Origin: Candidatus Nomurabacteria bacterium RIFCSPLOWO2_12_FULL_40_42 | Lineage (GTDB): Bacteria; Patescibacteriota; Minisyncoccia; Phycocordibacterales; UBA9973 | Direction of reading: 5' to 3' | Length of the DNA: 47,578 nt | Assembly (NCBI GenBank): GCA_001786195.1 | Contig: MFVS01000006.1 | Span: 1 to 47,578 of the forward strand | Shown here: piece by piece, positions 14,603-36,245 of the stretch | Layout: every line of letters starts with the position of its first letter | Position numbering within the stretch: position 1 is the stretch's first letter | Notes under the pieces: model-generated | Databases searched by the model: none | What the model was told of the DNA's origin: nothing | What the model saw: the letters and a program-made list of their open reading frames with translations, nothing else | Position numbers and translations under genes: made by a program

Positions 14603-14663
14603 AGAAGTTATCCACATCCAAGTTTGTTTAATATATGAGGGGGGGGTATTATTAGGTATATGA

Positions 14664-14766
14664 ATCCCGTACGAAGTTTATGTCGTATTTCTCGCGGGAA
14701 AGTAAAATTTTGATTATTATTTAATTTAGGTAAAAGTGAAAAAATATCTTTTACTTCGTACGGGAT
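14664..14766 (+). promoter_or_regulatory. Leader element A: 5'/start-codon long-range stem
   Basis: ATCCCGTACGAAGT (14664-14677) pairs perfectly with ACTTCGTACGGGAT (14753-14766), right arm includes AT of the start codon. Confidence 0.7.
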
Positions 14767-17539
14767 GAAAAAATATAATTTGTTTTTGGTCGTTTTTCTT
14801 TTATCATTTACATTACTAGGTTTTAATGTTAATTCTGCGAGCGCGCAAACTAGTGGCAGCGGCGGCGGAGGAGGTTCTTCATCTTTGCCAGCCGGTTGTG
14901 CTTCAACACAAGGTTATAGTCCAATTACCGGAGTAAAATGCGATACTATAGTTCTTGAGTATCTTCCGGAAGGTTGTACCTCGACATTTGGCTATAGCCC
15001 AACCACGGGGATAAAATGCGACAATGGTATTTACACATCGCTTCCAGTTGGCTGTACTTCGACAGTGGGATATAGTCCAGTTACGGGAGAAAGGTGTGAT
15101 AGTTTAACTTTCCCACCAGGCTGTAATTCAAATCAAGGTTATAGCATAACGACAGGTAGACCTTGTAATAATGGGGCAATTTTTCCTCCCGGCTGCGCGT
15201 CAAACACAGGTTTTAGTTCAACCACCGGTCAATCTTGCGGATCAAATAGTAATCCAACTATCACCGTCTTGAGTCCGAATGGGGGAGAACAAATCAAGAA
15301 AGGAGATACATACAGAATAAAATGGGAATCTAAAGATGTAAGTCAAGTATATATAAAACTTAGAAAAGGCAATGGTACTTACCAAGGAAACGAGCGGGAA
15401 ATTTCTCGTCCAATATATAATCAAGGCTATTTTGATTGGAAAGTGCCCACAACTATTCCAGACGGCAATGATTATGGCATTGCTTTAGTGCAAGAAGGAG
15501 GTAATAGATTTGATATTAGTGACTCACATTTCACAATTACCACTTCTTCAACTCAGCCTTCTATTAATCTTCAAGTTAATGGTTCAGACTTTCCTTCAGC
15601 AGTTGAATATGGATCAGTTATTGAAGCATCTTGGGGATCGACTGGCATTGATATATCAAAAACCGAATGTAAAATGGGTGGCCATTATGTGCCAACAATA
15701 GATGGATGGCTTTGGAATGATCAAACAAATCAAAAACCAAATGGAGTAGTTAAGTTATATGCTAGACATGCAACACTTGGATACATAAGCCCTCTTAGTC
15801 TCACCATAACATGTTTTGATGGTATCAAAAATTATTATGATAATGTTTCTATTACTGTAAAACAACCTACCACCAGCACCCCTTCCATCACCGTTTTGAG
15901 CCCGAATGGGGGAGAGAATTATAAAGTAGGAGATGTTGTGCCGATCAGATGGAGTAGCTCTGGTCTTCAAAGTGGTGCGAGGTTTGGCATTCAGCTTTCT
16001 TACAGAAATAGTGGAGAAACTTCAAACATTGAAGATTCAATGGTTACCAGTATAGTCGGCAATACATACAACTGGACTATTCCTGCTACATACGGGACTG
16101 GTAAGAGAAGTGATCTGTTTATGGTGAGAGTGATGGCATTTGAAACTGGAATGTCTCCCGCTCCTCAAGATTATAGCGATTCTTTTTTCACTATCGCCAC
16201 CGCAACTACCACCACTGCCGTGTCATGCACCGATTCCGATGGCGGGCAGAACCCTAATGTTTTAGGAATAGCGGACGGAAGAGCGAATGGCATTGGTTCA
16301 TACTTTACCGACGCGTCCGTGGCTTCGAATGGCGGGGTGTGCTCCGGTGATTCCTGCACGTCCGTCGCCGAAGGATATTGCACGAGCGCCGGGCAGGTTT
16401 CAAATATTTTGATGAGTTGTTCCACCGGTTATTCCGTAAACGGCGCTTGCGCCGCGGTTCCCACCAGCGCGAGGATTACCTATGACGTGAAGACCGATAA
16501 ATCGACATATACCTCCAGCGAAAGTATTCAGATCTATATTACCGCTACGAATAATACTTCAGAAGTTAAAATTCTAAATTGGAGTAATGGTTGTCAGACT
16601 TCATACGCGGTTGCCAATTATGATTCAAGTGTTGGCCAGATGTGTACGCAAAATCAAACATCCGTCAGTATTGCGCCCGGTGCCTCGAAAACTTGGACTA
16701 TCACGCACAATCCGGCCGTATACAGAATTCCCGCGGGGCAATACAAACTTTCCGGGAAAGTTTTGGGATTCGGAGGGGCGGATATTTTGATTACGATTAG
16801 CGATACTCAACCCACCGCCTCCATCGTCCTTACCTCAGCGAATGAAAACAAAACTGGAACAGCTGGGGTCTATACTTCGGGTTCCTTCAACAACAACCCT
16901 AACGATTGGAAATGGACGTTAAATCTCAATATGAATGGAAACACTAAGACCATTTTTTCCATAAAAATCACAGGAGCCGGAGCGATGCAGGGAGACATTT
17001 GGACCACCAACACCAGCAACTGGCCTGTTGTTGTTTTCCGAAACGGCGAGCAGTTGAATACAAGAATGGGACAAACATTCTCCGTCGGTCCCAACACCGA
17101 AACTCTCTATCTCTACGGCCAACAATCGGCTAAAACCACCTGGGGAGGAGGGACGCTTACTGTTACCTTTACTGATGGAACATCAGTAAGTTCCGCTATT
17201 CCTTCTCCTGCCACCGCCTCTTTATCTTCTTCCGTTTTAGGTTTGCCCGCGGGGTCTCTGACAGCCAGCGCGATAGGCGCAACAACAGATGCTCAAGTGT
17301 CTGGGAATATCGCCAGCGCGAGCAAATTCAGATTCACGCAGTTTCTGGAGCAGGGTTCATACGGGAATGAAGTTAGAGAACTTCAGAAGTTGTTGAACAA
17401 GGCAGGATATGATGCCGGAAATGTCGACGGAGTATTAGGCGCGAAAGTCAAAGCGGCTCTGATGGAATTTCAAACAGACAATAAATTGAAAGTTGACGGA
17501 CTTGTCGGATACGAAGTTCGAACGTTTCTGAATAGATAA
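14765..17539 (+). CDS. Large secreted protein: signal peptide, 5 Cys repeats, SPNGGE-type domains, BsuPI-like domain, C-terminal peptidoglycan-binding domain
   Basis: MKKYNLFLVVFLLSFTLLGFNVNSASA; GCxSxxGYSxTTGxxC repeats; two ITVLSPNGGE units; C-term GSYGNEVRELQKLLNKAGYDAGNVDGVLGAKVKAALMEFQ. Confidence 0.8.
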   Translation: MKKYNLFLVVFLLSFTLLGFNVNSASAQTSGSGGGGGSSSLPAGCASTQGYSPITGVKCDTIVLEYLPEGCTSTFGYSPTTGIKCDNGIYTSLPVGCTSTVGYSPVTGERCDSLTFPPGCNSNQGYSITTGRPCNNGAIFPPGCASNTGFSSTTGQSCGSNSNPTITVLSPNGGEQIKKGDTYRIKWESKDVSQVYIKLRKGNGTYQGNEREISRPIYNQGYFDWKVPTTIPDGNDYGIALVQEGGNRFDISDSHFTITTSSTQPSINLQVNGSDFPSAVEYGSVIEASWGSTGIDISKTECKMGGHYVPTIDGWLWNDQTNQKPNGVVKLYARHATLGYISPLSLTITCFDGIKNYYDNVSITVKQPTTSTPSITVLSPNGGENYKVGDVVPIRWSSSGLQSGARFGIQLSYRNSGETSNIEDSMVTSIVGNTYNWTIPATYGTGKRSDLFMVRVMAFETGMSPAPQDYSDSFFTIATATTTTAVSCTDSDGGQNPNVLGIADGRANGIGSYFTDASVASNGGVCSGDSCTSVAEGYCTSAGQVSNILMSCSTGYSVNGACAAVPTSARITYDVKTDKSTYTSSESIQIYITATNNTSEVKILNWSNGCQTSYAVANYDSSVGQMCTQNQTSVSIAPGASKTWTITHNPAVYRIPAGQYKLSGKVLGFGGADILITISDTQPTASIVLTSANENKTGTAGVYTSGSFNNNPNDWKWTLNLNMNGNTKTIFSIKITGAGAMQGDIWTTNTSNWPVVVFRNGEQLNTRMGQTFSVGPNTETLYLYGQQSAKTTWGGGTLTVTFTDGTSVSSAIPSPATASLSSSVLGLPAGSLTASAIGATTDAQVSGNIASASKFRFTQFLEQGSYGNEVRELQKLLNKAGYDAGNVDGVLGAKVKAALMEFQTDNKLKVDGLVGYEVRTFLNR

Positions 17540-20164: not shown

Positions 20165-20928
20165 TGCGAATTAAAGCAATCAAAACCAGAATATTCCGCG
20201 AAAACGAAGATTTGTTTTCGTTTATTTTTAAATACTTTAAAAAAATACCAGAAAAATCTATTTTAGTTGTCACTTCTAAAGTTGTGGCGTTATCGGAAGG
20301 CAGAACGAGGGAACTAAAAAGTAAAAAAGACAAGATTAAGCTAATAAAAGAAGAAAGTGATTTTGCTCTTAAAACAAAACAGGTTTGGCTCACGATTAAA
20401 GACGGCATGGTGATAGCCAATGCCGGCATCGATGAGTCAAATGCCAAAGGCAAACTTATTCTTTTGCCCAAAAATAGTTTTCAAAGCGCGGCAATGCTGC
20501 GAAAAAAATTAATGCAAAATTTCCGGCTGAAAAATTTGGGAGTTTTACTAACGGATTCCAGACTCATGCCGCTTCGAGCTGGAGTTGTGGGCGTGGCTCT
20601 AGGCTACGCCGGTTTTCAGGGAATTAAGAATTATATGGATCAAAAAGATATTTTTGGTCGGGTTTTTAAGATTTCTAAAACCGATATTGCGGATGGCTTG
20701 GCTACTGCGGCGGTGCTATGCATGGGAGAGGGTGAAGAAAGACAGCCCCTTGCTTTAATTACCCAAGCGCCGGTTGTTTTCCAGAGCAGGGTCAATCGCC
20801 GCGAACTTATTATTGATCCCAAAGAGGATATTTATGCGCCACTTTTTTCCAATTTAAAAGTCATCAAATCTAAAAAAGACTTGTCCCGTACTAAATTTTT
20901 GATTACGGGCCATAAAGATAAACATTAA
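20164..20928 (+). CDS. CofE-like (coenzyme F420-0:L-glutamate ligase superfamily) protein
   Basis: ILVVTSKVVALSEGR..GMVIANAGIDESNA..VLLTDSRLMPLRAGVVGVALGYAGFQGIKNYMDQKDIFGR..DIADGLATAAVLCMGEGEERQPLALI. Confidence 0.8.
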   Translation: MRIKAIKTRIFRENEDLFSFIFKYFKKIPEKSILVVTSKVVALSEGRTRELKSKKDKIKLIKEESDFALKTKQVWLTIKDGMVIANAGIDESNAKGKLILLPKNSFQSAAMLRKKLMQNFRLKNLGVLLTDSRLMPLRAGVVGVALGYAGFQGIKNYMDQKDIFGRVFKISKTDIADGLATAAVLCMGEGEERQPLALITQAPVVFQSRVNRRELIIDPKEDIYAPLFSNLKVIKSKKDLSRTKFLITGHKDKH

Positions 20929-20950
20929 TAGTTAAAATTTTAGTACTGGG

Positions 20951-25991: not shown

Positions 25992-26127
25992 ATGGGCAAT
26001 ATAGTAAATCAAATCAGGCAATAAGTAAAGGTATCGAATAGCTTCACCAAAAAGGTTGCCAGCCAAGGTATCGTACCATACATTCAATTTGCATCCCGTC
26101 CTTTTTTCCCATATAATGCATAGATGA

Positions 26128-26213
26128 ATTCTGTTAGAAGCCACGGTCGTGGTTTAATAATTTTAACTAAGTCTAGTTACGGTTTTTTGACCGCGACTTG
26201 CTTCTAACGGGAT
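26128..26213 (+). promoter_or_regulatory. Leader element D: 5'/start-codon long-range stem
   Basis: ATTCTGTTAGAAGC (26128-26141) pairs with GCTTCTAACGGGAT (26200-26213), 14 RNA pairs including 2 G-U; -10 TATAAT at 26112-26117. Confidence 0.7.
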
Positions 26214-26427
26214 GAACTGGAAACCAGTCATGATTTTTTATACCAAGACGACTTCTTGGATTGTGTTGTCTTTGCTTATCGGTCTGATAGTTGGCAAGTT
26301 TACCAAAAATCAGATCCTATTATTTATTTTCTTGATGATCGGTTTTGGCATTACATGTTCAGGAATTTATAAGGAGATAAAAGAATATAAAAAACAACTA
26401 GACAAAGAAAACAATGGCGGCAAATAA
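26212..26427 (+). CDS. AtpZ/AtpI-like F0F1 assembly subunit
   Basis: 71 aa, two TM, first gene of the atp operon. Confidence 0.65.
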   Translation: MNWKPVMIFYTKTTSWIVLSLLIGLIVGKFTKNQILLFIFLMIGFGITCSGIYKEIKEYKKQLDKENNGGK

Positions 26428-27272: not shown

Positions 27273-27595
<323 letters not shown>

Positions 27596-27637: not shown

Positions 27638-28087
27638 ATGAATGGATTCATAGAAACATTTCACATAGATTGGAGGTTGATGATTGCCCAGCTGTTTAAC
27701 TTTGGGATTGTTTTTTTGGCGTTTTATTTGCTCGCCGCCAAGCCGCTGCGTAAACTAATGAAAGAAAGGGGGGAAGAGATAGAGACAGGGCTTCAGAATG
27801 CTAAAGCTGGTATGGAAATGATTCAAAAAGCTAAAGAAGAATATGAGGAAAATACGATAAAACTTCGAAAGCAATCAATAGATACTCAGAAAGAACTTAA
27901 AAAAGAATTGGAAAAATTAAGAGATGAAAATATTGAAAGGATAAAAAAAGATGAAGAGGAATACGTAAAAAAGAGAGTCGTGCAATTCGAAATAGAGAAG
28001 AAAGCCTTGATTGAATCAGCTAAAGTTGAAATCGTATCTTTAGCCACATTGGCGGCTGAGAAAATAATGGATAAGAAAAACCAATAA
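27638..28087 (+). CDS. atpF: ATP synthase F0 subunit b
   Basis: N-terminal TM then long coiled coil; between atpE and atpH. Confidence 0.92.
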   Translation: MNGFIETFHIDWRLMIAQLFNFGIVFLAFYLLAAKPLRKLMKERGEEIETGLQNAKAGMEMIQKAKEEYEENTIKLRKQSIDTQKELKKELEKLRDENIERIKKDEEEYVKKRVVQFEIEKKALIESAKVEIVSLATLAAEKIMDKKNQ

Positions 28088-32318: not shown

Positions 32319-33785
<1,467 letters not shown>

Positions 33786-36166: not shown

Positions 36167-36245
36167 TCCCGTACGAAATCTTGCTAACTAAGTCTCGTAT
36201 AAAGGGATGGTCAATTTATTAGTTTAATGAAATTTCGTACGAGAT
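36167..36245 (+). promoter_or_regulatory. Leader element C: 5'/start-codon long-range stem
   Basis: TCCCGTACGAAAT (36167-36179) pairs with ATTTCGTACGAGA (36232-36244), 1 mismatch; abuts mreB ATG. Confidence 0.65.

Follow-up and report, generated by a model that had tools for sequence, protein, structure and literature searches.

Gene start codons in this group of Patescibacteria very probably serve as insertion sites for a family of non-autonomous, MITE-like mobile elements. Each element enters an existing gene after its ATGNN, and 4 bp (sometimes 5 bp) of the target are duplicated in the process. The old ATG remains upstream, often at the 5' end of a formerly leaderless gene. The elements were found by following up a leader noticed in the window, which is the whole stretch of 47,578 nucleotides that was analyzed.

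Element A and the start of the 924-aa protein

The left arm of this leader, ATCCCGTACGAAGT (14664-14677), is exactly complementary to the right arm ACTTCGTACGGGAT (14753-14766), and a reading frame of 924 codons is opened by the ATG at 14765, at the right arm. When stems ending in the AT of an ATG were scored for all ATGs of the window on both strands, this stem came out on top; the copies at atpD (ATG 32418), at 26212 and at mreB (ATG 36244) ranked second, third and fifth. A score of at least 30 is reached at 0.1% of sampled positions. The stem found at 27638 has its left arm within the upstream atp gene. The first-pass annotation had described the stem of element A, including the AT of the ATG, together with similar leaders before atpD, mreB and the first atp gene; the stem and its recurrence beside ATGs are borne out. 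The TATTAT box that it placed near the left arm is also there, and the predicted fold of the leader (z = -2.36) contains the inner hairpin that it had drawn.

That annotation lacked two features: an ATG that immediately precedes the left arm, and TGAA, repeated directly on either side of the element (Table 1). The layout of the locus is ATGAA-TCCCGTACGAAGT…ACTTCGTACGGGA-TGAAAAAA, hyphens marking the ends of the element. The TATTAT box is separated from the old ATG by 7 nt, so the gene probably had no leader before the insertion. The AUG adjoins the 5' end because the insertion divided an old start codon that was often leaderless. The empty site at this locus is unreadable among the orthologues of the 924-aa protein, which are too diverged.

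Table 1. Elements and associated features in the window
Feature	Position	Strand	Remarks
Original promoter, -10-like TATTAT	14647..14652	+	7 nt 5' of the old ATG
Old start codon ATG, opening a 17-codon upstream ORF (MNPVRSLCRISRGKVKF, then stop)	14660..14662	+	ATG present here in 63/98 elements
Target-site duplication, left copy, TGAA	14661..14664	+	
Element A, 101 bp, subfamily ii, TCCCGTACGAAGT ... ACTTCGTACGGGA	14665..14765	+	
Element A, left terminal inverted repeat (left arm)	14665..14677	+	
Element A, middle segment, CGCGGGA, right-arm-like	14690..14699	+	predicted partner of the left arm as the leader is transcribed
Element A, right terminal inverted repeat	14753..14765	+	the new ATG begins with its last base, A
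Target-site duplication, right copy, TGAA	14766..14769	+	
924-aa secreted protein (domains Kre9_KNH, BsuPI, PG_binding_1)	14765..17539	+	begins at the rebuilt ATG
Type II element, TCCCGTACTAAATTTTTGATTACGGG...AATTTTAGTACTGGG-ATG, before ATP-grasp gene	20884..20950	+	no duplication; absent from the first-pass annotation
Second copy, terminal inverted repeats TTCTGTTAGAAGC/GCTTCTAACGGGA	26129..26212	+	between ATGAA (26124-26128) and TGAA (26213-26216)
Third copy, before atpD within the atp operon	32320..32418	+	no duplication visible any more
Fourth copy, before mreB	36167..36244	+	flanks TGGG/TGGG; old start now GTG

Structure of the elements and of their targets

Nearly all copies are 43-125 bp long, carry no transposase gene and conform to the consensus TCCCG(N)GAA...TTC(N')CGGGA, i.e. 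TCCCG…CGGGA. Their arm pairs include TCCCGTTAGAA/TTCTAACGGGA and TCCCGTACGAA/TTCGTACGGGA. The arms measure 13 bp, and 1210 of the 1261 pairs in 97 copies are Watson-Crick; stems of differing sequence still pair (GTACGAA/TTCGTAC vs GTTAGAA/TTCTAAC).

A target duplication of at least 4 bp is present in 68 of 98 copies at starts, as against a mean of 18.5 and a maximum of 30 with shuffled right flanks. It is 4 bp long in 60 copies and 5 bp long in 7. The duplicated bases track the start of each individual gene (ATGGA, ATGAA, ATGCA, ATGTA, ATGGG, ATGAG, ATGCCA). No duplication is visible in about 30% of the start copies, that at atpD among them. The target architecture is ATGAA-TCCCG…CGGGA-TGAA, in which the old ATG persists upstream. 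The final A of the element and the TG that opens the duplication together restore a full ATG downstream, and the original first codons follow it. Copies away from starts are likewise flanked by 4-bp duplications (TAGA, TAAA, TTGA). In about half of the 98 elements a TANNNT motif peaks 12-14 nt before the upstream ATG; this -10-like position agrees with leaderless genes, and operon-internal cases also occur.

Several variants of the elements were noticed. Minimal elements of 43-64 bp on IMG/VR viral contigs (L477, L478, L485, L496) precede genes; they show the ATGAA duplication and contain AAAGGA(G) and an inner copy resembling the right arm. In another group (L318, L319, L376, L379, L400, L401) the arms are the same and the interior is largely palindromic, giving hairpins of 45-68 bp; most of these are not at start codons, and some are flanked by duplications of 4 bp (TTTA and TAAA, for example). 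A reverse-oriented element, L059, lies with a TTGA duplication in the region coding for the N-terminus of a membrane protein; the gene reads like rodA, and translation could begin within the element.

Copies in the window and in the same genome

Element A and the copies at atpD and mreB are members of one family. The second copy, which precedes an ORF of 71 aa lying 5' of the atp genes, has a different stem (GTTAGAAGC/GCTTCTAAC), which elsewhere in the order is the most frequent type. The right arm together with the ATG, TTCGTACGRGATG, has 22 exact matches in the genome of 767,545 bases (0.77 Mb) and the reversed control none. With one mismatch allowed, most right-arm matches have a partner arm within about 130 bp, and arm searches of this genome yield several dozen copies. 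The atp region also holds a CTAG-rich palindromic array (TTAGGTTCTAGTTTCTAG..., 27273-27350), and a similar array precedes atpD in a relative (L443).

Filled and empty sites at mreB and atpD

The start region of mreB could be compared in 31 genomes of the same genus, 24 of which are empty and seven filled. In the 24 empty genomes a TATATT-like box is followed after 6-7 nt by ATGGG or a near variant, with no leader. All seven filled sites are interrupted at the identical nucleotide. A filled allele (L279) reads CATAGGCTCATGGG-TCCCGTTAGAAGC...CGGGA-TGGGTATTTTTAC; an empty one (L280) reads CATAGGCTCATGGG-TATTTTCAC, and the two are identical up to the insertion point. The seven elements have several kinds of interior, unrelated to one another, and their hosts are scattered over the mreB tree, on which the filled state needs six changes. 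Since few branches of this tree are strongly supported, the interiors are the better evidence of independent insertion. The insertions at mreB have occurred repeatedly. At atpD every readable relative is empty, the site lying between atpG and atpD with no obvious promoter. Filled orthologues frequently carry an interior from another subfamily.

Preference for start codons

Among 56 elements collected with a query pattern free of ATG, 53 end at an ATG. Part of this set was first obtained with a pattern containing ATG, and the ATG-free search recovered those copies again. The window, about 90% coding, contains 51 gene starts, and its intergenic DNA has 379 ATNNR or 115 ATGNN sites; from these counts the fraction expected at starts is 12% (ATNNR) or 31% (ATGNN), for which P is 1.6e-45 and 6.5e-24, respectively. 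Transcription start sites cannot be the only target, because the insertions at atpD, L010 (a stop/start overlap) and L082 (in an atp operon), the latter two judged by eye, are internal to operons.

The family is present in 50 of 397 genomes of the order, in 32 genera. When one copy per genome was sampled across the order, 20 of 30 stood at an ATG followed by a long ORF, and several of the remaining 10 were near-perfect hairpins of 45-68 bp. In other families of the order about a third of the sampled copies lie away from start codons, which counts against the start-codon account. Most named records carrying the element are Candidatus Nomurabacteria or other Paceibacteria-type MAGs, and the organism of the window would, judged by shared sequences, be placed among them. 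A scan of GTDB contigs with the 14-mer right arm gave mostly chance matches in unrelated phyla.

The interiors form several subfamilies. At starts they lie in one orientation, with 211 plus and 7 minus interior matches; the clearest exception, L269, is forward and its duplication, TGCA, is a palindrome, and the other exceptions are short matches.

Folding of the leader and the middle segment

In the predicted structures, the region around the new AUG has an unpaired probability of 0.12 in the full leader and of 0.42 when the left arm is occupied. In the interiors there are 75 occurrences of GGG and 4 of CCC, largely in the first half. Pairing of the left arm with the interior exceeds that of shuffled sequences in 36 of 96 copies, and pairing of the right arm does so in 12 of 96. 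The CGGG segment, suggested earlier as a competitor for the left arm, is present: in the first 45 nt of the leader the left arm and the middle segment form hairpins of -11.9 (element A), -10.9 (atpD) and -10.6 kcal/mol (mreB). The copies are related to one another, which calls for caution with these statistics. After related interiors had been merged, the folding effect was negative in 14 of 21 clusters and not significant (P = 0.19); the polarity of GGG held, with 11 clusters against 1 for CCC (P = 0.006).

The competing segment is real and polar. According to the folding models it can pair with the left arm, and the new AUG would thereby be released. Most simply, it is read as a transposase-binding repeat or as a decoy keeping the rebuilt start usable. 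A decoy role would be supported by the 43-bp element of a viral contig, which consists solely of the left arm, TAACGGGA, AAAGGAG and the right arm. Departures from Watson-Crick pairing in the arms are about equally often G·U (14) and A·C (10). As the two are similar, the arms resemble repeated DNA more than an RNA stem under selection, which makes a constraint on their sense RNA improbable.

Proposed course of insertion and its consequences

The observations on sites, arms and interiors suggest a possible course of events. A putative transposase would insert the element in trans, being either guided to start codons or tolerated only there. The stem of inverted repeats would then form in the mRNA and bury the new AUG. 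Once transcribed, the right-arm-like segment of the interior might capture the left arm, which would also be masked by any ribosome sitting on the old AUG. Because either kind of masking would leave the new AUG open, the host gene should stay expressed and may become regulated.

A bolder form of this proposal, to which we would give somewhat less than an even chance, is that of a transposon specialized in start codons. It would combine built-in recognition of start sites, leaderless and operon-internal alike, with an RNA decoy, and would repeatedly rewire the leaders of housekeeping genes across the order.

The known bacterial mobile elements with a preference for harmless sites integrate for the most part at tRNA genes, terminators or att sites. 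A choice of start codons, even promoterless ones within operons, would require the recognition of translation starts or else reveal unusually strong selection. Essential genes such as mreB would gain new leaders again and again. The elements can misplace gene starts and 5' leaders in the annotation of these genomes, and the puzzling "leader RNAs" of the group become a testable problem of transposition.

Alternative explanations

The strongest competitor accepts the insertions and differs from the preferred explanation only in the reason for the site: elements would insert at random and survive solely at start codons, where promoter, gene and start all stay intact, so that the bias would reflect selection rather than targeting. 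This is a possibility of some weight, although we consider it doubtful. The compact genome, with its high coding fraction in the window, and the existence of copies away from starts speak for it; the abundance of intergenic ATNNR and ATGNN sites relative to starts, in spite of which 53 of the 56 elements lie at ATGs, and the repeated hits on one nucleotide at mreB speak against it. The figures lean towards targeting rather than selection. An altogether different and improbable alternative is a cis-acting RNA switch, a conserved regulatory RNA whose left arm would have two possible partners, the middle segment (start open) and the start codon (start closed), with temperature, a ligand or ribosome occupancy deciding between them. 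It would account for the strong stem over the AUG, the position at start codons, the persistence of pairing in stems of different sequence, the polar middle segment and the left:middle hairpins of element A, atpD and mreB. Most orthologues, however, lack the element, and the same gene bears interiors of unrelated subfamilies; the target duplications and the lack of a clear sense-strand bias in the arms (G·U 14, A·C 10) also argue against a switch. Apart from two tRNAs, nothing in the window matches an Rfam covariance model, which speaks against a known RNA family. The recurring cis-acting RNA class proposed in the first-pass annotation is not supported: the sites at mreB (24/31) and in the readable relatives at atpD are empty, and the flanking duplications show insertion. 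A conserved riboswitch was rejected on the same absence from orthologues and on the duplications. What survives of the proposed start-codon switch is the alternative pairing, kept as a possible side effect or mechanism of tolerance.

Two further alternatives assign a role to the bracketing ATGs or repeats. A leader peptide read from the old ATG might couple translation to the new ATG through a stop just upstream. In the 84-bp subfamily the upstream ORF does end in TTC-TAA-CGGG-ATG, and similar peptides, MxxVRxxGRxLI...FLTA(T/A)CF followed by a stop, are encoded by the window copy, L297 and L299. In most copies the stops of the upstream ORFs are scattered, with no fixed frame relative to the gene, and a conserved leader peptide was rejected, being confined to one subfamily; coupling of this kind is unlikely. 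It is very hard to believe that the element is spliced from the mRNA like an intron or skipped by the ribosome as a bypassing element. The direct repeats and the stem uniting both ends would suit such a process, but it would allow sites inside reading frames, whereas the copies are found at starts with a complete ATG following, and the window contains no match to an intron family.

Comparison with known systems

By form, the elements are MITEs. The bacterial MITEs, such as Correia elements, RUP and MITEAba12, are also short and non-coding, with terminal inverted repeats, target duplication, many copies and interior subfamilies, and are presumably moved in trans. Unlike them, the present elements occupy, with few exceptions, the precise position of a start codon, keep to one orientation and rebuild the ATG. 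Translational riboswitches and RNA thermometers resemble them in having a stem that covers the AUG and a competing upstream pairing, but the elements are not conserved at orthologues and are bounded by target duplications. The byp elements of mitochondria, which cause translational bypassing, are likewise short hairpin insertions with direct repeats at their flanks; byps sit inside reading frames and are skipped, whereas the elements described here sit at starts and supply a new one. No description of such elements was found in the literature searched, mainly open-access papers. To our knowledge, and in those papers, there is no earlier account of insertion exactly at the start codon, of the restored ATG, of the uniform orientation or of the polar segment in the interior.

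No transposase carrying these repeats was found in the flanks of the fetched copies, and the flanks of about 1.5 kb contained no long element or unpaired arm with these arm sequences that might indicate an autonomous relative. Genes for Y1 (RAYT-like) transposases are common in the genus. The REP/BIME sequences moved by such enzymes (RAYTs) are similarly short palindromic repeats dispersed in bacterial genomes; they differ from the present elements, which have a target duplication and sit at starts. TCCCG...CGGGA repeats are absent from the flanks of 20 Y1 genes, which carry other palindromes. These differing palindromes and the duplications speak against identity with REP/RAYT systems. The Y1 genes (L559-L578) are bracketed by palindromes of their own, one just 5' of the promoter or start and one at or just past the stop, which differ from gene to gene.

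A related type II element

An element of a second type, TCCCGTACTAAATTTTTGATTACGGG…AATTTTAGTACTGGG-ATG, occurs in 52 of 80 genomes of the same genus. The type II copies (L321-L375) abut the ATGs of housekeeping genes; judged by eye, the N-termini of these resemble those of L17, ClpP, Obg, LepA, NusG, trigger factor and FtsA. ACYTG precedes the element in 27 of 31 copies, and there is no duplication. Its arms depart from Watson-Crick pairing by G·U seven times and by A·C once, a pattern more RNA-like than that of the main family.
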